Source: Halolamina sediminis
GTDB taxonomy: Archaea > Halobacteriota > Halobacteria > Halobacteriales > Haloferacaceae
Assembly: GCF_001282785.1 (NCBI RefSeq)
Contig: NZ_CVUA01000001.1
Coordinates: forward strand, 62,001 to 126,000
DNA: 64,000 bases
Direction of reading: 5' to 3'
The notes under the pieces were generated by a model. The model saw only the letters and a program-made list of their open reading frames with translations, had not been told where the DNA came from and did no database searches. The position numbers were made by a program, and so were the translations under genes. Below are positions 7,508 through 61,011 of the stretch, one piece after another. Each line of letters starts with the position of its first letter. Within the stretch, counting starts at the first letter, position 1.

Positions 7508-7798
7508 CAACAGCATCTCGACGCTAGACCACTTGCGACCGCAGGGTGCCGGGCACGAGGCCCGGCACAGCGCCGAGTCCCCACCCCTCCCCCCGCGAGC
7601 GCCGTAATTGGCGCTCGCGAGGCGTCCACCGCGACCGCACCGCGGCCGCGGTGGCGCGTGACGTGAGCGCCTCCGTGCGCGAACGAGCGCGCGAGGGACG
7701 AGTGAACGACCGAAGGGAGTGAACGAGTCGGCTGGGGAGGAACGAGGGCTGTGCGGGGCGGTTGCGGTCACAAGTGGCCAAGCATCGAGCTGCTGTTG
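7508..7798 (+). repeat. Structured dispersed element, copy A
   Basis: Copy A occupies most of the 462-base convergent gap between the oxidoreductase and methyltransferase genes. The left end CAACAGCATCTCGACGC.. and the right end are imperfect inverted repeats of about 36 bases. Inside lie the hairpin GTGCCGGGC-acgag-GCCCGGCAC, the invariant block GAGTCCCCACCCCTCCCCCC, a hairpin GAGCGCC-gtaatt-GGCGCTC, then GCGAGGCGTCCACCGC, a short GCGCG stem and the G-rich right arm. This is the shortest copy: it lacks the two extra hairpins seen in copies B, D and E. A degraded unit similar to the right end follows to about 7840. The strand given is the arbitrary orientation with the C-rich block first. Confidence 0.85.
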
Positions 7799-7890
7799 CC
7801 GTCGGTGCCGAAGGATAGAACTGCTGTTACCGCCCTGCCGAAGAGAAGAAAGACCCCAGCCAGCGCAGTTCCTACCGAAAAGCCCGCTAA

Positions 7891-22867: not shown

Positions 22868-23216
22868 CAACAGCATCTCGATGCTAGACCACTTGTGACC
22901 GCAGTGCGCCGGATATGGAGTCCGGCGCAGCATCAAGTCCCCACCCCTCCCCCCGCGGCGGCCGACTGTCGGCCGCCGCGAGGCGTCCACCGCCACCGCA
23001 CCGCGGCGGCGGTTGGCGCGCGACGTGAGCAGGGCGGGACCGGCGGTCCCGCTGGCAGTGCGGGCGACGCGTGGGTCGCCCGCACGACGCCTCCGTGCGC
23101 GAACGAGCGCGCGAGGGACGAACGACCGCAGGGAGTGAGTCGGCTGGGGAGGCCTGAGGGCTGTGCGGGGCGGTGCGGTCGCAAGTGGTCTAGCTCACTC
23201 CGCGGTCCTGTTCGCA
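22868..23216 (+). repeat. Structured dispersed element, copy B
   Basis: It lies in the 567-base gap between hisA and hisB. The left end CAACAGCATCTCGATGCTAG is complementary to the right end through GCTAGACCACTTG. Internal hairpins are GCGCCGGA-tatggag-TCCGGCGC, a 12-bp palindromic stem GCGGCGGCCGAC/GTCGGCCGCCGC, GCGGGACC-ggc-GGTCCCGC and GTGCGGGCGAC-gcgtgg-GTCGCCCGCAC. The core blocks are as in copy A. The right flank AGCTCACTCCGCGGTC is shared with copy E but not with A, C or D. Nothing else is recognised between the element and hisB. Confidence 0.85.
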
Positions 23217-23342
23217 GTCATGCCACCGAACTCGCGGTTGCCGTGATAGTCGCGACTACGTCGTGACGCCAACAGCACGTAGCCTCCTACTACACCCAGT
23301 CCTTCCACAATCGCTTTGCCCCCGCGGAACACCCTCTCAACC

Positions 23343-26235: not shown

Positions 26236-27798
26236 ATGACCAGCGGCTCGCCCGAGAACGTCCTCTTCGTGGTGATGGACACGGTCCGAAAGGACTACCT
26301 CGGCCCGTACGGCTACGACCGTGACACGACGCCCGGGCTCGACGCGTTCGCCGAGGAGGCGACCGTGTTCGACAACGCCGTCGCGCCCGCGCCGTGGACG
26401 CTCCCCGTCCACGCATCGATCTTCACGGGGATGTACCCCTCCCGCCACGGCGCCGACCAGGAGAACCCCTACCTCGAAGGGGCGACGACGCTCGCCCAGT
26501 CGCTCTCGGCGGCGGGCCACGACACCGCCTGCTACTCCTCGAACGCCTGGATCACCCCCTACACCCACCTCACCGACGGGTTCGACGATCAGGACAACTT
26601 CTTCGAGGTGATGCCGGGCGACCTGCTTTCGGGCCCGCTCGCGCGGATGTGGCAGGTGCTCAACGACAACCCCCGGCTCCGCAAGCTGGCGGACATGATC
26701 GTCAGCGCGGGCAACACCGCCCACGAGTACCTGAGTTCGGGCGAGGGCGCCGACTCCAAGACCCCGCGGGTGATCGACCGCACGAAGCAGTTCGTCGAGG
26801 AGGCCGAATCGGGCGACAGCGACGGGTGGTTCTCCTTCATCAACCTCATGGACGCCCACCTGCCGTACCACCCGCCCGCGGAGTTCCGCGAGGAGTTCGC
26901 CCCCGGCGTCGACTCCACGGAGGTCTGCCAGAACTCGAAACTGTACAACTCCGGCGCGCGGGAGATCGACGACGAGGAGTGGGACGACATCCGCGGGCTG
27001 TACGACGCCGAGGTCGCCCACATCGACAGCCAGCTCACCCGGCTGTTCGACTGGCTGAAAGAGACCGACCGCTGGGACGACACCGCGATCGTGGTCTGTG
27101 CAGACCACGGCGAACTCCACGGCGAGCACGGTCTCTACGGCCACGAGTTCGGGCTGTACGACCCCCTCGTGAACGTCCCGCTGCTGGTGAAACACCCCGA
27201 ACTGGACGCCGACCGCCGCGAGGACACGGTCGAACTGCTCGACCTCTATCACACCGTGCTCGACACGTTCGACGCCGACGCGACGCCGACCCCGGGATCG
27301 AACGAGGAGGCGGTCGCGCTCGACCCCACGCGCTCGCTGCTCTCGGAGCAGTACCGCGAGTTCGACGGCGCCGACGACCCGGACCCGGCCCAGCAGGCCG
27401 CGCCGTCGGGCGAGACTGGCTTCGTCGAGTACTCCCGTCCCGTGGTCGAACTCAAGCAGTTGGAGGAGAAGGCTGCCGACGCCGGGATCGAACTCGACGA
27501 GGACTCGCGGTTCTACGCGCGGATGCGTGCGGCGCGCAGCGCGGACGCGAAGTACGTCCGGATCGACCGCATCGAGGACGAGGCGTACCGGCTCGACGAG
27601 GACCCCGGCGAGGAGGAGAACCTCGCGGGTGAAGGGGACGAGGCGATCGACACGGTGGAAGGCGAGCTGGCGATCTTCGAGAACGAGATCGGCGGCGCGT
27701 GGACGAGTGCTGCCGCGGGTGAGGTGAGCGACGATTCGGTGGAGGAGATGGACGAGGAGATCCAAGAGCGGTTGCAGGATCTTGGGTATATGGAGTAG
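26236..27798 (+). CDS. Sulfatase/alkaline phosphatase superfamily hydrolase
   Basis: A 520-residue cytoplasmic hydrolase. The N-terminus has NVLFVVMDTVRKDYLGPYG with metal-binding Asp15. The nucleophile position reads APWTLPVHAS with Thr55, so the formylglycine motif [CS]xPxR of true sulfatases is absent. A Thr nucleophile suits phosphodiester, phosphomonoester or phosphonate substrates. Later metal ligands are in VVCADHGELHGEHGLYGH. The C-terminal 40 residues are an acidic helix ending EEIQERLQDLGYME. No signal peptide. Relatives in haloarchaea often sit in surface-glycan loci, but not here. Repeat copy C begins 64 bases after the stop. Confidence 0.92.
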   Translation: MTSGSPENVLFVVMDTVRKDYLGPYGYDRDTTPGLDAFAEEATVFDNAVAPAPWTLPVHASIFTGMYPSRHGADQENPYLEGATTLAQSLSAAGHDTACYSSNAWITPYTHLTDGFDDQDNFFEVMPGDLLSGPLARMWQVLNDNPRLRKLADMIVSAGNTAHEYLSSGEGADSKTPRVIDRTKQFVEEAESGDSDGWFSFINLMDAHLPYHPPAEFREEFAPGVDSTEVCQNSKLYNSGAREIDDEEWDDIRGLYDAEVAHIDSQLTRLFDWLKETDRWDDTAIVVCADHGELHGEHGLYGHEFGLYDPLVNVPLLVKHPELDADRREDTVELLDLYHTVLDTFDADATPTPGSNEEAVALDPTRSLLSEQYREFDGADDPDPAQQAAPSGETGFVEYSRPVVELKQLEEKAADAGIELDEDSRFYARMRAARSADAKYVRIDRIEDEAYRLDEDPGEEENLAGEGDEAIDTVEGELAIFENEIGGAWTSAAAGEVSDDSVEEMDEEIQERLQDLGYME

Positions 27799-27862
27799 TC
27801 TGAGTTGACGGATTTGCTGTGGATCGGTGTTCTACGCGAGGTCGGTTTGTCCCTGCTACCAG

Positions 27863-28154
27863 CAACCGCATCTCGTTCGTAGACCGCTTGTAACCGCAGT
27901 GTGCCGGACACCAGGTCCGGCACAGCCCCGAGTCCCCACCCCTCCCCCCGCCGGCCCCGACCGATGGGGCCGGCGAGGCGTCCACCGCTACCGCACCGCG
28001 GCCGGCGGTGGCGCGAAGCGCACGCGGCATCGTGCCGCGTGTCAGCGCGAGGGATGAGCGAGTGAGCGGAGCGAACGAGCGAATCGGTTGGGGGAGGCCT
28101 GAGGGCTGTGCCGGGCGGTGCGGTTACAAGAGGTCTAGCGTCGAGACGCCGTTG
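27863..28154 (+). repeat. Structured dispersed element, copy C
   Basis: It fills the 409-base convergent gap between the sulfatase and polymerase D genes. The terminal stem shows a compensated change: TTGTAACCGCA on the left pairs with TGCGGTTACAA on the right, where other copies have GTGACC/GGTCAC. Internal hairpins are GTGCCGGAC-accag-GTCCGGCAC, GCCGGCCCC-gaccgat-GGGGCCGGC and a copy-specific CACGCGGCA-tcg-TGCCGCGTG. The C-rich block, GCGAGGCGTCCACCGC and CCGCACCGC are invariant. The right arm has CCGGGCGGTGCGG where others have CGGGGCGG. No other feature was found in the gap. Confidence 0.85.
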
Positions 28155-28207
28155 CCGTCGCGGAAAGCAGAAAGGGGACGGAAAGACGAGGATCTCCTCG
28201 CCGTAGC

Positions 28208-31200
28208 CTACATGAAGTCCGCAATCCCGCTCTGTTTGTTCTTGTCGTTCTCGAAGATCGACTCCAGCGACCGCTCCAGCACCTCCAGCCGCTGTTTCGT
28301 GTAGTCCCGGCAGCCGTACTCCTCGGCGACCTCGATGGCGATGTCCATGTACTTGTTCACGGAGCCGCGGTGGACCGTCAGCGTCATCCGGCCGCCACAC
28401 TCCCGGCAGTCGCCGGTCAGCGGCACCCGGCGGTACTTCTCACCGCAGTCGAGACAGCGCGTCTCCTGCCGGGAGAACGCCCGGAGGTTCCCGATCAGGT
28501 CCGGCAGGAAGTGGTTCTCGATCACCCGCTCGGCCACGTCGGTCTGATCGACGGCCCGTAGCTTGCGGGAGAGTTCGAGTTGGGCGTCCATCTTCGTCTC
28601 CATGTCGCCGAGGGTCTTGTACGCCGAGAGGTCCGGTCCGAGCGCGAGGTCGGTGGTGTCGTGGGTGTGGTCGAACCCGTGGTACTCCTCCTCGGTGCCG
28701 AGCGTGTCATCCCCGATCTGGATCAGCTCCTCCACCTCTTCGGGGTCGGCCATCTCGAGGCTGGCCTCGTAGAACTCCGTGGGGTACTGCCGGACGATGT
28801 CCATGTTGTGTGCCTCGTCGTCGATCTCGGAGGGGTCGATCCGGGAGGACATCACCAGCGGGGCGTCCATCCGGCCGCCGCGCTGGTCGGGCAGGAACTC
28901 CTTCGAGAAATTGAGGAGGCCGTCGAGCAGGAGCATGACGCAGTCCTCGTCGCCGTCGCACTGCTTTTGGGAGGTATCGTTTGCGATCAGTGAGTGGGTG
29001 TCCTCGACGGTGAGGCAGTACGTGTTCTCGGTGTCGCTCTCGACGTACTCCACCGACGCGACAGACTCGACGAGGTAGTCCCCGTCGCCGCCGTCGAATG
29101 CACGTCGCTTTTGCGTGTCCCGTGCCGCCAACTGCGCTTCGAGAGTCTCGGTCTTTCGTGTGAGGTGGAACCCGACCGTTTCCGAGAACGCAACTGCGTC
29201 TTCCGAACTGATCGAGAGGACGTAGCTCCGTGCGGATTCGCGTGGGTCGTCGATGTCGTAGTAGCCCGGGAAGTACTCGTGGAGCGGTGACGGCTCAGTC
29301 GTCTTGACGCTCGAAACGATTCCTAGCCGCGTCAGAAGCGCAAGCAAGTCTTCTTTGAGTTCACGACTGACTGTCGTCGCTGAGATGACAGCGGCGTTCG
29401 TTGACGCTGCCCCGTCACCGCTGAAGTAGCCTCGGAGGTACGCGGCGACGATCGCGTCCGGAGCATCGAACACGGGCTGGGGCACACGCTTCGACTCTGC
29501 GAGTACGCCAGCATCCAGAACGGTGTCGAAGAACGTCCGCAGGAGTCTCCCTGACGCCGTCACTTTCGCCTCGTTCTCGCGATACGGTTCGACGCCGAAC
29601 TCCTCTCGAAGCACTTCGACGAAGAAACCGCGTGCTTCCGTTTCCGTCCCGCAGATCGTCGTCTGGTGGATCGTTCCTTTCGGGGTTTCCTGCTCTCGGG
29701 CGAAGCCTTCAGCGGCGTAGTACCCGAGAAGGGTAGCGACTCGCTCGTTCAGTTCGACAAAGCGGTCCATGTCGGGACCATCTCGCTTCATCCCGAGCCG
29801 AACGTCGGTGGGGAGTCGGTCAAGCAACGCCTCCGTGGAGTCGAACAGTTCGAGAAGCAGGTCTACGGGGATACTCTCCCGGTAGATGTAGTTACTCAAC
29901 CCCTTCTTGTTCAGCCCGAGCACCTCAGCAGTACTCTTGAGGGGGTAGAACGTGCCCTCGTAATCATCAGCGAGCTGCTCCGTGAAGAGGTCGTACAGCC
30001 ACTCTTTCTCCAGACCCTTGACCGTCAGTCGGCTGTTGTCGATCTCTTCAGTCTGCAGGAACTCCTCTAAGAGGTCGAACTTCGTCGTCTGATCCGGAGA
30101 AACCGTATCCAGACCGTCTGGCTTCACGATGCTGTCGTCCTCGGTCAGTTCGGACGCCTTCTTCGACTCGATCTCCCCGTCGAACACCTGCATCTCGTGA
30201 TCCGGCGTCACCGTGATCTCCCGGCCGCTCCGGGTCTCGACTCGGACCATGTGCTCCGGCGACGGGTGTTTGCTCACCGCCTCGACGGGCTTGACGACCT
30301 CGTTGCCGTCGGCGTCGATGGAGGGAACGAACACGTCGCCGTCAAGTTCCTGCACGAGCGTCCCGAAGTCGTCCTCCTCGGCCGTCTCGGGGTCGAGTCG
30401 GTCCTCGACGAGCGTCTGAATCTCCTCGTGGTGCCACGACTCCTTCTCGTCGCGGAACCACACCTTCGTCTCGGGGTGGAAACAGTTCCGACGCTTCGCC
30501 GCGTGGAAGTACGGATGCGCGTACCCCACGGCTGCGCTGGTGAAGCCGACCACCCGACCCACGACCGCCGCGGAGGTGTGCGGCGCCATCCCGAACACGA
30601 GTTCGCCCACCAGGTCGTCGCGTTCCTCGACCTCGTAGAAGGGCTCGAGCCCGTAGAACCGTTCGAGCAGGTCGTCGACGAAGTCCGCCGTGCGCATCAT
30701 GTGTTCGGCGGCGCCGTCGGGGAGCACGATGTCCTGCACCTTCAGTTCGATCAGCTGATCGTCGTGCTCCAGCGGCTCGCCGTCGATGTCGGTCTCGTAG
30801 CCGAGCCGCCGGAACTCCGCGGCGGTGGTGTCCAGCTCCTCGGGCCGGACCGAGGTGACCGGCAGGTCGGTCATGTCGTAGCGTACGGTGCCGTCCTTGA
30901 ACGACGAGACGCCGTGTTTGGCCCGAAGAATCCCTTTCTCCATCGGCTCGGGGGTCTCGTTCGCCGACATCAGCCCCTGCACGCCCTTCAGGATGGAGAA
31001 GCTCCCTTCGCGCTCACCGATGGAGTCGAGCGCGTCGTGGTACACCGAGTTGAGGTCGATGGTGCGCTCCTCGGGGCTCTCGACTTCCCACTCACAGCGC
31101 GGGCAGACGACGCGGCCGGACTCGTCCGGCTCGACTTCGACGCCGCAGTCGTCGCACTCGTAGTACGGCTCGGTGTGGCTCTCACACTCCTGACAGCGGT

Positions 31201-33400
31201 TCTCGTAGGTGTGTTCGCCGCAGTTCGGGCACTCCCGCTCGCCGAGGCTGACCTCGATCTGGCCACGGCCGGCGTCGGTGCGATCCTTCGCGGCCTTGGC
31301 CACGTCGCGCTGGCTGCCGCCGGCCTCGCCGATCGGGAACATCGTGTGCACCGCCGGCGAGAGGTCCCGGCTCTCGGACTTCTCGGGGCGGCCCATCCGG
31401 TTCCCGATCCGGGTGGGGGCACGCTCCCGAATCGTGAAGGGGGCGATCTCGTTCACCGCCTCGATCGCGTTCGTGCCGGGTAGCGAGGGCGACTCGACGG
31501 ACGTGTCGGCAGCCGAGTCCGCGGCGGCCGAGTCGGTAGCGTCGTCCCGAACCGCCATCCCGCCGTCAGCCTCGGCGGGCGGCGGCGACTGTCGGCCGCC
31601 GTCGGCGACTGCGGCGTCCTCCGCGTCGGCGCCCCACGTCCGCGCGCGCTCGCTCAGGTCCGCGGGGGTCCACTGCCGATCCAGTTCCGTCGTCACGCCC
31701 AGCGAGCGCAGCAGCGGGCGGTACTCCGGCACGACCAGCGTCCCCTCGGTCGCGGTGTGCTCGACGAGCAGCCGTTCCAGCGCGCGCTGCACGTCGTCGC
31801 TGCGTGCCAGGCGGAGCTCGTCGTCCACGATCTCGCCGTCGGCCGCCGCGGCCGCGAGCGCGTCGAACTCCGCGACAGAGATGTCGTGCCAGAGGTAGGT
31901 GTACTCGGGATGGAGGGGACAGTCGTAGCGGTCTGCCCAGTCCAGCGCGGTGCGCGGGTCGGGCTCGTCGAGGTCGACGTGAGGGTCGTCCCGGAGCGCC
32001 TGCACGTCCGCGCCGGCGTCGTCGAACTCCTGCTCCCACCACTCGACGGCGTAGGAGGCCGGCGAGAGCGGGTGGTTGTTCTCGACGTACTCCCCGAAGT
32101 TGACCAGGTACTCGCCGAGGTCGAGGATCTCGTCGACGCCGTTGCGGATCTCCAGGGCCTCCTCGGGGTCGTCGATGCGCCGCACGTCGCCGTTCGCGAG
32201 GCGGACGGTCGGCCCCTCGATCGAGTCGACGGGGATGATCCCGGCGGCCTTCCCCGGCCGCTCGGTCTTGATCTGGGTCCCCGTCGCGAGGAAATCGTCG
32301 ACCAGATGCATCGTCGCGGGGTGGATCCCGGCGGTCGCGAACCCGTGGTTGCGGGCCCGACCGTACCGGAGCCTGAACCCGCCGGACTCGGAGGGGTGGC
32401 TGAACACCGGTCGACCGGCGATCAGGTCCCGGAGATACTTCGTCGCGGGCTCGTGCCGGACCGGACCTTCGGACTCGTTCACCTCTTCGTCGCTCTCGGT
32501 CTCGGCTTCCTCCTCGTCGTCCGCGTCCTCGTCGTCCGCCCCGTCGTCGCCGCCCTCGCCGTAGTACGTCCCGTCGATGAGGTCCTGCAGCCACGGCCAG
32601 TCGACCTCGTCGAGCTGGCGAGTGTAGCGCTGAATCTTCGGCGCCTTGAGGGCGATCCCCTCGGCCATGACGAGACACATCCCGCCGCGGGCGGAGTTGG
32701 TGTCGACGCGCTCGAGGTCGCGGAAGCCGGAGACCTCCTCGTCGCCGGTGGCCTCCCCGTCGAGCATGATCGGCATGTGCTCGGCGATGAACTTCGTCTC
32801 CTTGTCCTTCGGCGTGTACTGGAGGCCGGTCTCCTTCTCGTACAGCTGGATCTCCTCGGCGTAGCGTTCGACCTCGTCGTCGCGGGCGTGGAACTCCTCG
32901 ATCCCGAGCAGCGAGCGGGCGTAGTCGGCGACGAGCACCGACAGCGCCTGTGCGGTCCCACCTGCCGAGCGGATCGGGCCGGCGTAGTAGACGTTCACGA
33001 ACTCGGTCCCGTCGTCGTTCTCCAGTAGTTCCGCGCGGTCGATCCCCTCGATCGGCGCGGCGACGACACCCTCGGTCAGGAGTGCAACGGCGGTCCGGAC
33101 CGCGCCCTCGATCTTCCCCTCGCGGCTGTCGTAGTCGCCGACGTTGCCGTCGACGAAGTCCTCGACGAGTTCGAGCGCGGCCTCCTCGCGGCTCATCTCC
33201 CCTTCGAGCTCCCGGACGCGCTCAGCGACGCCGGGGATGCCGAGGATGTTCTCGACGCGGTCGGCCATGTCTTTCGCGACCGGGATCTCGATCTCGGTCT
33301 GGGGGTCCCGCCCCTGCTCGCGGGCGGCCTCGGCTCGGTCGAACGCGTCGTCGAGCTGGCCCTCCAGCCGCTCGAAGTACCGCTCGTCGTCGTCTCTCAC
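28208..33400 (-). CDS. polD2: DNA polymerase D large subunit DP2 with intein
   Basis: A 1730-residue precursor of the catalytic large subunit of polymerase D, which pairs with DP1 to replicate the chromosome. Removing the intein (residues 973-1480) leaves 1222 residues, the usual DP2 size. Visible blocks include NVYYAGPIRSAGGTAQALSV (about 128-147), an internal Asp/Glu-rich insertion near residue 290, zinc ribbons (CPNCGEHTYENRCQECESH; CDDCGVEVEP ... CPRCEWEVE) and the active-site section around HAAKRRN|CDGDEDCVMLLLDGLLNFS. A C-terminal zinc site (CLDCGEKYRRVP ... CRECGGRM) and a tail GIADFM follow. The start is GTG at 33398-33400. It lies 25 bases downstream of the PPC-domain gene, in one operon. 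Confidence 0.98.
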   Translation of the reverse strand: MRDDDERYFERLEGQLDDAFDRAEAAREQGRDPQTEIEIPVAKDMADRVENILGIPGVAERVRELEGEMSREEAALELVEDFVDGNVGDYDSREGKIEGAVRTAVALLTEGVVAAPIEGIDRAELLENDDGTEFVNVYYAGPIRSAGGTAQALSVLVADYARSLLGIEEFHARDDEVERYAEEIQLYEKETGLQYTPKDKETKFIAEHMPIMLDGEATGDEEVSGFRDLERVDTNSARGGMCLVMAEGIALKAPKIQRYTRQLDEVDWPWLQDLIDGTYYGEGGDDGADDEDADDEEEAETESDEEVNESEGPVRHEPATKYLRDLIAGRPVFSHPSESGGFRLRYGRARNHGFATAGIHPATMHLVDDFLATGTQIKTERPGKAAGIIPVDSIEGPTVRLANGDVRRIDDPEEALEIRNGVDEILDLGEYLVNFGEYVENNHPLSPASYAVEWWEQEFDDAGADVQALRDDPHVDLDEPDPRTALDWADRYDCPLHPEYTYLWHDISVAEFDALAAAAADGEIVDDELRLARSDDVQRALERLLVEHTATEGTLVVPEYRPLLRSLGVTTELDRQWTPADLSERARTWGADAEDAAVADGGRQSPPPAEADGGMAVRDDATDSAAADSAADTSVESPSLPGTNAIEAVNEIAPFTIRERAPTRIGNRMGRPEKSESRDLSPAVHTMFPIGEAGGSQRDVAKAAKDRTDAGRGQIEVSLGERECPNCGEHTYENRCQECESHTEPYYECDDCGVEVEPDESGRVVCPRCEWEVESPEERTIDLNSVYHDALDSIGEREGSFSILKGVQGLMSANETPEPMEKGILRAKHGVSSFKDGTVRYDMTDLPVTSVRPEELDTTAAEFRRLGYETDIDGEPLEHDDQLIELKVQDIVLPDGAAEHMMRTADFVDDLLERFYGLEPFYEVEERDDLVGELVFGMAPHTSAAVVGRVVGFTSAAVGYAHPYFHAAKRRNCFHPETKVWFRDEKESWHHEEIQTLVEDRLDPETAEEDDFGTLVQELDGDVFVPSIDADGNEVVKPVEAVSKHPSPEHMVRVETRSGREITVTPDHEMQVFDGEIESKKASELTEDDSIVKPDGLDTVSPDQTTKFDLLEEFLQTEEIDNSRLTVKGLEKEWLYDLFTEQLADDYEGTFYPLKSTAEVLGLNKKGLSNYIYRESIPVDLLLELFDSTEALLDRLPTDVRLGMKRDGPDMDRFVELNERVATLLGYYAAEGFAREQETPKGTIHQTTICGTETEARGFFVEVLREEFGVEPYRENEAKVTASGRLLRTFFDTVLDAGVLAESKRVPQPVFDAPDAIVAAYLRGYFSGDGAASTNAAVISATTVSRELKEDLLALLTRLGIVSSVKTTEPSPLHEYFPGYYDIDDPRESARSYVLSISSEDAVAFSETVGFHLTRKTETLEAQLAARDTQKRRAFDGGDGDYLVESVASVEYVESDTENTYCLTVEDTHSLIANDTSQKQCDGDEDCVMLLLDGLLNFSKEFLPDQRGGRMDAPLVMSSRIDPSEIDDEAHNMDIVRQYPTEFYEASLEMADPEEVEELIQIGDDTLGTEEEYHGFDHTHDTTDLALGPDLSAYKTLGDMETKMDAQLELSRKLRAVDQTDVAERVIENHFLPDLIGNLRAFSRQETRCLDCGEKYRRVPLTGDCRECGGRMTLTVHRGSVNKYMDIAIEVAEEYGCRDYTKQRLEVLERSLESIFENDKNKQSGIADFM
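28961..30484 (-). mobile_element. Intein with LAGLIDADG endonuclease in DP2
   Basis: 508 residues inserted after AAKRRN and before CDGDEDC in the polymerase active site, the position used by other archaeal Pol II inteins. Block A is CFHPETKVWF with Cys1 and block B is ITVTPDHEM. Two LAGLIDADG-type motifs, LLGYYAAEGFA and YLRGYFSGDGA, mark a homing endonuclease. The C-terminal blocks are VEDTHSLIAND then TSQKQ|C. The last residue is Gln rather than Asn and the residue before it is Lys rather than His, a rare but known variation for Pol II inteins. Codons here are visibly less GC-rich than in the flanking exteins, which fits horizontal homing. Confidence 0.93.
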
Positions 33401-44779: not shown

Positions 44780-45127
44780 CAACCTCATCTCGTTCGTCGA
44801 CCACTTGCGACCGCAGTGTGCCGGACACGAGGTCCGGCACGGCACCGAGTCCCCACCCCTCCCCCCGCGAGCGCCAAGGTGGCGCTCGCGAGGCGTCCAC
44901 CGCCTCCGCACCGCTGCCGGCGGTGGCGCGCGACGTGAGCAGGGCGAGACCGAAGGTCTCGCTGGCCGTGCGGGCGACGCGTGGGTCGCCCGCACGACGC
45001 CTCCGTGCGCGAACGAGCGCGCGAGGGACGACCGACTGAGCGGAGCGAAGGAGGAAGTCGGCTGGGGAGGTGTGTGGGCTGTGCGGGACGGTGCGGTCAC
45101 AAGGTGCCAACGATCGAGATGCTGTCG
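44780..45127 (+). repeat. Structured dispersed element, copy D
   Basis: It lies in the 573-base gap between the cupin start and the epimerase stop. The terminal inverted repeats run CAACCTCATCTCGTTCGTCG.. against ..ATCGAGATGCTGTCG. Hairpins are GTGCCGGAC-acgag-GTCCGGCAC, GAGCGCC-aaggt-GGCGCTC, GCGAGACC-gaa-GGTCTCGC and GTGCGGGCGAC-gcgtgg-GTCGCCCGCAC. The third has A/T pairs where copy B has G/C, a compensated change. Core blocks are as in the other copies; the right arm has GTGCGGGACGGTGCGG. The short remainder up to 45200 holds a T-rich stretch only. Confidence 0.87.
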
Positions 45128-60472: not shown

Positions 60473-60556
60473 GTCGGAGTTTCGTTCGTCTCGTTTTTCG
60501 TCGGTATCGCCGACGGCACGGCTACGAACAGTACTGCGGGGTTCGGTGCTTGGGTC

Positions 60557-61011
60557 GCGAACACGACCGCGGAGTGAGCTCGACCACTTGTGACCGCACC
60601 GCCCCGCACAGCCCTCAGACCTCCCCAGCCGACTCACTCCCTGCGGTCGTTCGTCCTCCGAGGGAGCGGAGCTCCCTCGTGCCCTCGTTCGGTTCACTCA
60701 CGAGGACCTCGCGCGCTCGTTCGCGCACGGAGGCGTCGTGCGGGCGACCCACGCGTCGCCCGCACTGCCAGCGAGACCGCCGGTCTCGCCCTGCTCACGT
60801 CGCGCGCCAACAGCCTCAGCGGTGCGGTGGCGGTGGACGCCTCGCCGGCGCCAATCGCCGGCGTCACCAGAACGCAAAGCGTTCTGGTTGGCAGCCGAGA
60901 GTCGAAGACTCTCGGCGACGCCCGCGGGGGAGGGGTGGGGACTCGGTACTGTGCCGGACCTCGTGTCCGGCACCCTGCGGTCGCAAGTGGCCAAGCATCG
61001 AGATGCTGTTG
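60557..61011 (-). repeat. Structured dispersed element, copy E (expanded)
   Basis: The largest copy (455 bases), inverted relative to A-D, between trpS and the pheST leader. Read on the minus strand it begins CAACAGCATCTCGATGCTTG and ends with AGCTCACTCCGCGGTC, like copy B. The variable site holds a multibranch set: GCCGAGAGTC-ttc-GACTCTCGGC, CCAGAACGC-ttt-GCGTTCTGG and GCCGGCG-attgg-CGCCGGC, with GGCGTC and GACGCC able to close the first two. It also has GCGAGACC-ggc-GGTCTCGC, GTGCGGGCGAC-gcgtgg-GTCGCCCGCAC and an extra CGAGGGAG-ctccg-CTCCCTCG near the right end. Core blocks are conserved. Bases 61012-61126 hold a degraded end unit and no gene. Confidence 0.87.

Follow-up and report, generated by a model that had tools for sequence, protein, structure and literature searches.

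Hypervariable but self-complementary hairpins in a modular foldback repeat of Halolamina: covariation that favors DNA-level templating over stepwise selection on RNA

The window analyzed here, a 64,000-nucleotide stretch of the Halolamina sediminis genome (contig positions 62001-126000), contains five copies (A, B, C, D and E) of an element with a length of about 290-460 bp. We read it as a foldback repeat of Halolamina that is modular, non-autonomous and non-coding. The stems of its local hairpins are hypervariable and yet almost always perfectly self-complementary, whereas the far-spaced complementary arms of the same copies drift independently. The most probable reading, to which we assign a probability of roughly 0.55, is that the local hairpins would be kept palindromic at the DNA level, by template switching inside the hairpin together with exchange between copies, rather than by stepwise selection on RNA.

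Organization and genomic distribution of the element

The genome of the window, with Halolamina kinship, is a single contig of 2.84 Mb over which about 55 copies of the element are scattered, mostly in intergenic, non-coding positions. A search with the full-length element scored 40 candidates, and the copy set used below comprises 56 assembled genomic loci, including a few that are truncated or have had their ends exchanged. The conserved C-rich motif GAGTCCCCACCCCTCCCC occurs in this genome 32 times exactly and 59 times with three or fewer mismatches, against 5 for the reversed pattern. The element was found in all six congeners sampled, and the congener set consists of 55 loci from six Halolamina species; beyond the genus, matches extend to a part of the element only.

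The first half of the element is composed of an outer arm, a terminal arm (CTTGYRACCGCA), hairpin H1, the C-rich block, hairpin H2 and GGCGTCCACCGC, and the second half of variable hairpins, the core (CGAGGGATGAGCGAGTGAGCGGAGCGAACGAGCGAATCGGYTGGGGAGG), another terminal arm (TGCGGTYRCAAG) and another outer arm, the fixed blocks (C-rich block, GGCGTCCACCGC, haloarchaeal core and termini) being separated by short-loop hairpins. H1 has a 9-bp stem and a 5-nt loop, and H2 a stem of 9 bp or more and a loop of about 4-7 nt. In copy C (about 27863-28155, forward strand, as are all its parts), which the earlier note on this DNA had flagged, the outer left arm GCAACCGCATCTCGTTCGTAGACCG (27862-27886) forms an imperfect inverted repeat with the outer right arm (28131-28155), and the two arms of the terminal stem are CTTGTAACCGCA (27887-27898) and TGCGGTTACAAG (28119-28130); the inverted ends of this copy amount to 37-nt arms that are 81% complementary. 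Between them lie the H1 arms GTGCCGGAC (27901-27909) and GTCCGGCAC (27915-27923) with the loop ACCAG (27910-27914), the C-rich block in the H1-H2 interval (27930-27947), the H2 arms GCCGGCCCC (27950-27958) and GGGGCCGGC (27966-27974) with the loop GACCGAT (27959-27965), the conserved GGCGTCCACCGC (27977-27988), which is the left side of a helix with a spacer of about 16 nt, the pre-core hairpin ACGCGGCA-TCG-TGCCGCGT (28022-28040) and the pan-haloarchaeal core GCGAGGGATGAGCGAGTGAGCGGAGCGAACGAGCGAATCGGTTGGGGGAGGC (28047-28097).

Copies A (7508-7799), B (22868-23218) and D (44780-45127) lie on the forward strand and copy E (60554-61011) on the reverse strand. Copy D carries an internal module (GCGAGACC..GGTCTCGC / GTGCGGGCGAC..GTCGCCCGCAC), and copy E an inverted two-hairpin insert in H2 along with two further modules. 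The two-hairpin module, of about 58 bp (or about 116 bp) and with GTC...GAC ends, is present in some copies only, where it is inserted in either orientation between the CC and the GG of H1 or H2; the two further modules sit, again in some copies, between H2 and the core. In a few copies the usual terminus is swapped at one end for GGGYGGGRCTGAAAGGGGC, a second end type with 12 exact copies in the genome (at 385541, 481355, 714619, 1997651 and other positions) that also adjoins the core in other genera, a pattern of ends exchanged among repeat families. An exact scan for the terminal motif CTTGYRACCGCA found 85 sites, nearly all inside copies and about 6 elsewhere. Isolated copies of the terminal motif CTTGCGACCGCA, located outside known elements at 161173, 608092, 666426, 1947874, 2668759 and 2825736, could be decayed copies, ends of a partner transposon or chance occurrences. 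On its left, the copy at 2699590 is directly abutted by seven or more near-identical 39-bp units (GACAGCAACCGCGACAGCATCTCGTTCGTTGGCAACTGG) arranged in tandem, and one or two diverged units of this kind stand before many other copies.

Copy C is located between a sulfatase gene (26236-27798, forward strand), with relatives 84-91% identical in H. rubra, H. salifodinae and H. pelagica, and the gene for the DNA polymerase D large subunit (28208-33400, reverse strand). At the corresponding site in H. pelagica (L096, 11560-11940), an apparent small open reading frame takes the place of the element. The polymerase gene contains an intein with LAGLIDADG and splicing domains (gap at about 28960-30483), which at the same site is present in H. 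rubra (L089), partial in H. pelagica CDK2 (L109) and absent in H. salifodinae (L090) and H. pelagica CGMCC 1.10329 (L096). Copy B is flanked by a His_biosynth (hisA-like) gene on one side and the next gene on the other; in three congeners this spacer is about 55 bp or less and lacks the element, and in a fourth, H. salifodinae, it holds a copy with different stems, the occupied and empty forms being too divergent for a junction or target-site duplication to be placed. Across the copy set, 5 of 56 copies lie in divergent gene contexts and many seem to be downstream of genes. These figures come from a crude ORF caller, by which one gene or more (the hisA-like one) was misread, and the low number of divergent contexts is therefore no more than suggestive.

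Covariation in the local hairpins

Pairing was assessed by setting the left arm of each copy against the right arm of that copy and, for comparison, against right arms taken from the others. For H1, scored at fixed coordinates in 47 copies of this genome, 414 of 423 pairs are Watson-Crick, against 356.8±5.4 with shuffled partners (0/5000 shuffles reach the observed value), and with congeners the count is 398/414 against 329±5. A further series comes from H2, which was absent from the list in the earlier note: 350 of 351 pairs against 186±15 in this genome, with 12 distinct stems, and 359/369 against 204±16 in the relatives, with 20 stems. The arms of H2, in contrast to those of H1 at fixed coordinates, were taken from the windows that pair best; this choice inflates the observed value to some extent but cannot account for 350/351. 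When each distinct stem is counted once, the excess persists (264/288 against 210±5 for the 32 stems of H1; 241/252 against 133±11 for the 28 stems of H2), and therefore many perfect stems arose separately.

As a phylogenetic null, columns were simulated independently along a FastTree tree of 77 copies with the number of changes per column kept. H1 pairs 2, 7 and 8 gave G values of 63-79 against simulated maxima of 14-37 (0/1000), with 11-23 inferred changes per side, under a null that exchange between copies makes only approximate; a better control is therefore provided by the terminal stem, which comes from the same copies. The earlier note had described compensated changes in this hairpin among the window copies (GTGCCGGGC/GCCCGGCAC in A; GTGCCGGAC/GTCCGGCAC in C, D and E; GCGCCGGA(T)/(G)TCCGGCGC in B) and expected covariation to exceed a phylogenetic null. 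All of the bases that it quoted are present in the sequence, and for the first hairpin both statements hold. Its third example, a module hairpin that differs between B on the one hand and D and E on the other, is also compensated and reads GCGAGACC/GGTCTCGC in ten copies and GCGGGACC/GGTCCCGC in two, with a single unpaired exception (GCGGGATC/GGTCCCGC).

Stems with mismatches are nearly all singletons, and the mismatches themselves, in small counts, are G·U 7 and A·C 7 in H1 and G·U 3 and A·C 2 in H2. Some loops are exact reverse complements of each other: in H1, ACGAG (51) and CTCGT (3), and ACAGG (7) and CCTGT (1); in the module hairpins, TTC/GAA, GGA/TCC and AGA/TCT. One H2 hairpin, GCGCTCGCC-GACCGCT-GGCGAGCGC, is identical, loop included, in several copies of this genome and in congeners, and the frequency of identical H2 stems is 0.100 within genomes against 0.047 between genomes (P = 0.001).

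Independent drift of the far-spaced arms

The terminal stem behaves differently. Among 49 copies with scorable 12-nt arms, 531 of 588 pairs are complementary against 536.4±3.8 with a random partner (P = 0.95), and at its variable pair, under the tree null for 77 copies, 29/77 are Watson-Crick against 34 expected, with 24 changes on each side. The combinations at this position in the 49 copies are C·A 18, T·G 12, T-A 10, C-G 8 and C·T 1. The double change reported for copy C (CTTGTAACCGCA/TGCGGTTACAAG) is thus real but isolated and reflects no general rule, and the expected covariation above the phylogenetic null fails here. The C-A mismatch in this stem, which the earlier note had added as a caveat, turned out to be the important clue. 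The variant TTGTAACC occurs unmatched on the left side at 2009310 and on the right side at 705182 and 2113291. The outer 26 nt of 49 copies likewise give no within-copy excess (733 pairs against 740±22 shuffled), so that covariation is rejected for the outer arms by the shuffle test and for the terminal stem by the shuffle test and the tree null. Two alternative stems, GCACAGC/GCTGTGC and CCTCCCC/GGGGAGG, show almost no variation and are uninformative.

The helix 3' of H2 with the spacer of about 16 nt shows no covariation either (426 against 425.5), its left arm being nearly invariant and its right arm occurring in 20 variants. Covariation is accordingly present where the loop is 3-7 nt and absent where the arms are about 16 nt or more than 200 nt apart (the terminal and outer arms). 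The terminal stem serves as an internal control because the same copies share the same genealogy. The proposal that pairing is selected or templated therefore applies to H1, H2, the pre-core hairpin and the hairpins of inserted modules, but not to the terminal stem, the outer arms or the helix with the longer spacer.

Turnover of stems at orthologous loci

When both flanks were matched to a copy in this genome, 30 congener copies had the same orientation and one the opposite, with mean flank identity near 88%; because the flanks match and the orientation agrees 30:1, most insertions at these sites look inherited. The exception concerns copy A (7508-7799), for which the orthologous site (L196, genome G003) carries the element in the opposite orientation. 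The orthology signal is retained in the outer right arm and the flanks, whereas inside the element orthologs are no closer than random non-orthologs (0.813 against 0.806 for H1, 0.722 against 0.731 for H2, 0.750 against 0.738 for the core). For H2, 0 of 32 orthologous pairs share a stem and 126 compensated double differences are found against 8 single ones; for H1, 5 of 51 pairs share a stem, with 53 doubles against 31 singles. At locus 451283, the five comparable H2 stems from five species are all different and all perfect.

A hypervariable hairpin beside the core in other haloarchaea

Of the 194 genomes sampled from the class, 63 contain the core pattern CGAATCGGYTGGGGAGG, at up to 49 copies per genome, and they represent 28 of 65 genera; the reversed control gave 0. 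The counterpart of the pre-core hairpin was scored in four additional genera, of which three belong to other families, and gives 118/119, 86/91, 119/119 and 126/126 pairs, where shuffling yields means of 57, 42, 59 and 51, respectively. Given that this hairpin was chosen as the best in a 60-nt stretch, shuffled sequence is the fair control: perfect stems of 8 bp or more stand beside the core in 37 of 80 cases (46%) in other genera against 0.9% of shuffled segments. Hypervariable perfect pre-core hairpins in four further genera imply that the phenomenon is not confined to one genus.

Proposed mechanism and alternative explanations

Under the templating scenario, the nascent strand, or an extruded hairpin, would switch template inside the hairpin during DNA synthesis, such that one arm is copied from the other; this copying would repair any change or spread it to both arms together and would sometimes flip the loop. 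Exchange between copies, by gene conversion, would then carry whole hairpins from locus to locus, and weak selection for hairpin formation probably filters the palindromes. Gene conversion is efficient in polyploid haloarchaea. The covariation would in this case be a DNA-level by-product of local palindromes and not evidence for a functional RNA fold.

Several features favor templating over stepwise selection on RNA: only arms 3-7 nt apart covary; exact loop inversions are predicted by a strand switch inside the hairpin but not by selection on pairing; A·C is as frequent as G·U in H1 and H2, and C·A exceeds G·T in the terminal stem; and multi-site differences dominate between orthologous stems. 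Identical H2 stems are enriched within genomes and therefore exchange between copies also acts, of which the lack of any closer likeness between orthologs inside the element is a further sign. We infer the simultaneity of the compensatory changes from the divergence of the copies, and template switching with gene conversion as the cause of the pattern. Some observations weigh against templating. Swapping of ready-made hairpins alone could produce many multi-site differences, the changes being unpolarized at the divergence of the strains compared; perfect stems are likewise the outcome when a DNA or RNA hairpin turns over fast under ordinary compensatory selection; and H1 orthologs retain the 31 single-side differences.

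A possible, if unlikely, explanation is that the hairpins are selected as DNA structures (single-stranded hairpins or cruciforms) whose shape is recognized by a transposase, resolvase or chromosome protein, with stepwise compensation and spread by gene conversion. Pairing retained in nearly all copies and in several families, the near-restriction of mismatched stems to singletons and the lack of a G·U preference, as a constraint at the DNA level predicts, all agree with it, as does a single-stranded DNA fold far more stable than that of shuffled sequence (z = -8.0 and -8.7 for the two strands). This explanation alone, however, predicts neither the exact loop inversions nor the near-absence of single-arm H2 intermediates between orthologs, and no intact Y1 transposase was found in the genome, nor any ends in common between the element and local tnpB elements.

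It is more doubtful that the covariation simply reflects a few old perfect palindromes, that is, a limited set of ready-made hairpin cassettes swapped between copies by ectopic conversion or insertion. The recurrence of GCGCTCGCC-GACCGCT-GGCGAGCGC, the greater stem sharing within genomes and the insertion of modules in both orientations fit this possibility, but the excess that persists per distinct stem speaks against it; cassette exchange probably acts together with templating.

It appears improbable that the repeat represents a structured RNA, or else a 3' UTR element or terminator, and that its covariation arose by classical selection on RNA base pairs. The strong covariation of H1 and H2 and the gene contexts tallied by the rough caller would suit an RNA; nevertheless, the closing terminal stem does not covary and has more C·A than G·U pairs, G·U and A·C are balanced in H1 and H2, H2 stems are fully replaced at orthologous loci, and Rfam yielded nothing credible, with no match at the gathering threshold and only chance-level matches at E<=1. 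Finally, chance formation of palindromes and apparent covariation in GC-rich DNA with a low-complexity core is already refuted by the shuffle, tree and segment controls.

Relationship to known repeats

Several other repeats are palindromic and modular. Allomyces double-hairpin elements have compensated stems, BIME/REP mosaics and pneumococcal BOX elements are modular, interspersed palindromic intergenic repeats, and REPs are tied to RAYT-type Y1 transposases. The element resembles BIME/REP and BOX in its modular palindromic intergenic build, as judged by description only. In contrast to REPs, its host genome has only broken or partial Y1_Tnp matches (one gene split by TAG and one partial frame of 75 aa) and lacks an intact RAYT-type Y1 transposase. 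The IS200-type Y1 matches are located at 2716873-2717231 and 2554893-2555084, and several TnpB frames are open. No partner transposase for the element was found in a scan of TnpB and Y1 matches. The terminal inverted repeats of copy C are those expected of a MITE. Among phage records no match was found, whereas five haloarchaeal replicons among plasmid records match, with no annotation under the matches. A literature search by sequence strings and topic, of limited coverage and thus no proof of absence, retrieved no description of the repeat family or of its covariation.

The closest mechanistic parallel is offered by hairpins maintained by template switching (Monttinen & Loytynoja 2022, PMC8794818), with which the element shares several simultaneous compensatory changes, inverted loops and near-perfect arms; a compensatory change combined with loop inversion is regarded there as the strongest possible support for template switching. 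Those hairpins lie in RNA genes and their loop inversions are rare, whereas here dispersed non-coding archaeal DNA repeats show several inverted loops and include a non-covarying terminal stem as an internal control. The PATEs and SMR-A elements (PMC3119063) are likewise haloarchaeal, transposase-free and palindrome-rich, and in the part of that paper available to us, element switches at one site are reported and arm covariation is not described. The same part describes SMR-A elements of Haloquadratum walsbyi as entering palindromes with no duplication of the target, and the inserted 58-bp and ~116-bp modules, though not the rest of the element, appear to do alike as short repeats within palindromes, a comparison by description rather than by sequence; the site of copy A with opposite orientations in two species resembles the Haloquadratum 'SwitchRepeats'. 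PATEs, as characterized in that part, have near-terminal palindromes resembling IS605 ends and no terminal inverted repeats, whereas the element has imperfect inverted ends unlike those of local tnpB elements. A reading as a PATE was rejected, as the ends of the element have nothing beyond short motifs in common with nine TnpB and three Y1 matches. The mobile GC clusters of yeast mitochondria (PMC4478555) are similarly GC-rich, palindromic, non-autonomous repeats that merge and shuffle and take different forms at a homologous site, but they are organellar and short (e.g. 42 bp) and have putative target duplications, compared with about 300-450 bp, fixed blocks and a clade-wide core here; the part of that paper available to us also cites Allomyces double-hairpin elements. 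We place the element with dispersed palindromic repeats and rate it as unusual in that the hairpin structure is inherited and the sequence is not.

Implications

It is conceivable, although speculative, that haloarchaea-wide intergenic repeats with self-renewing hairpins exist in which a dedicated DNA process rewrites the stem and enforces the palindrome, so that structure but not sequence would be inherited at fixed chromosomal sites. The standard proof that an RNA fold is functional is base-pair covariation. In this element such covariation is extreme in the local hairpins and absent from the closing stem of the same molecules, and hence covariation alone would mislead. With dozens of copies per genome, mostly at inherited sites, and complete turnover of H2 between congeners, the repeat family provides a natural assay of the rate of template switching, and it bears on whether covariation tests need a template-switch null.
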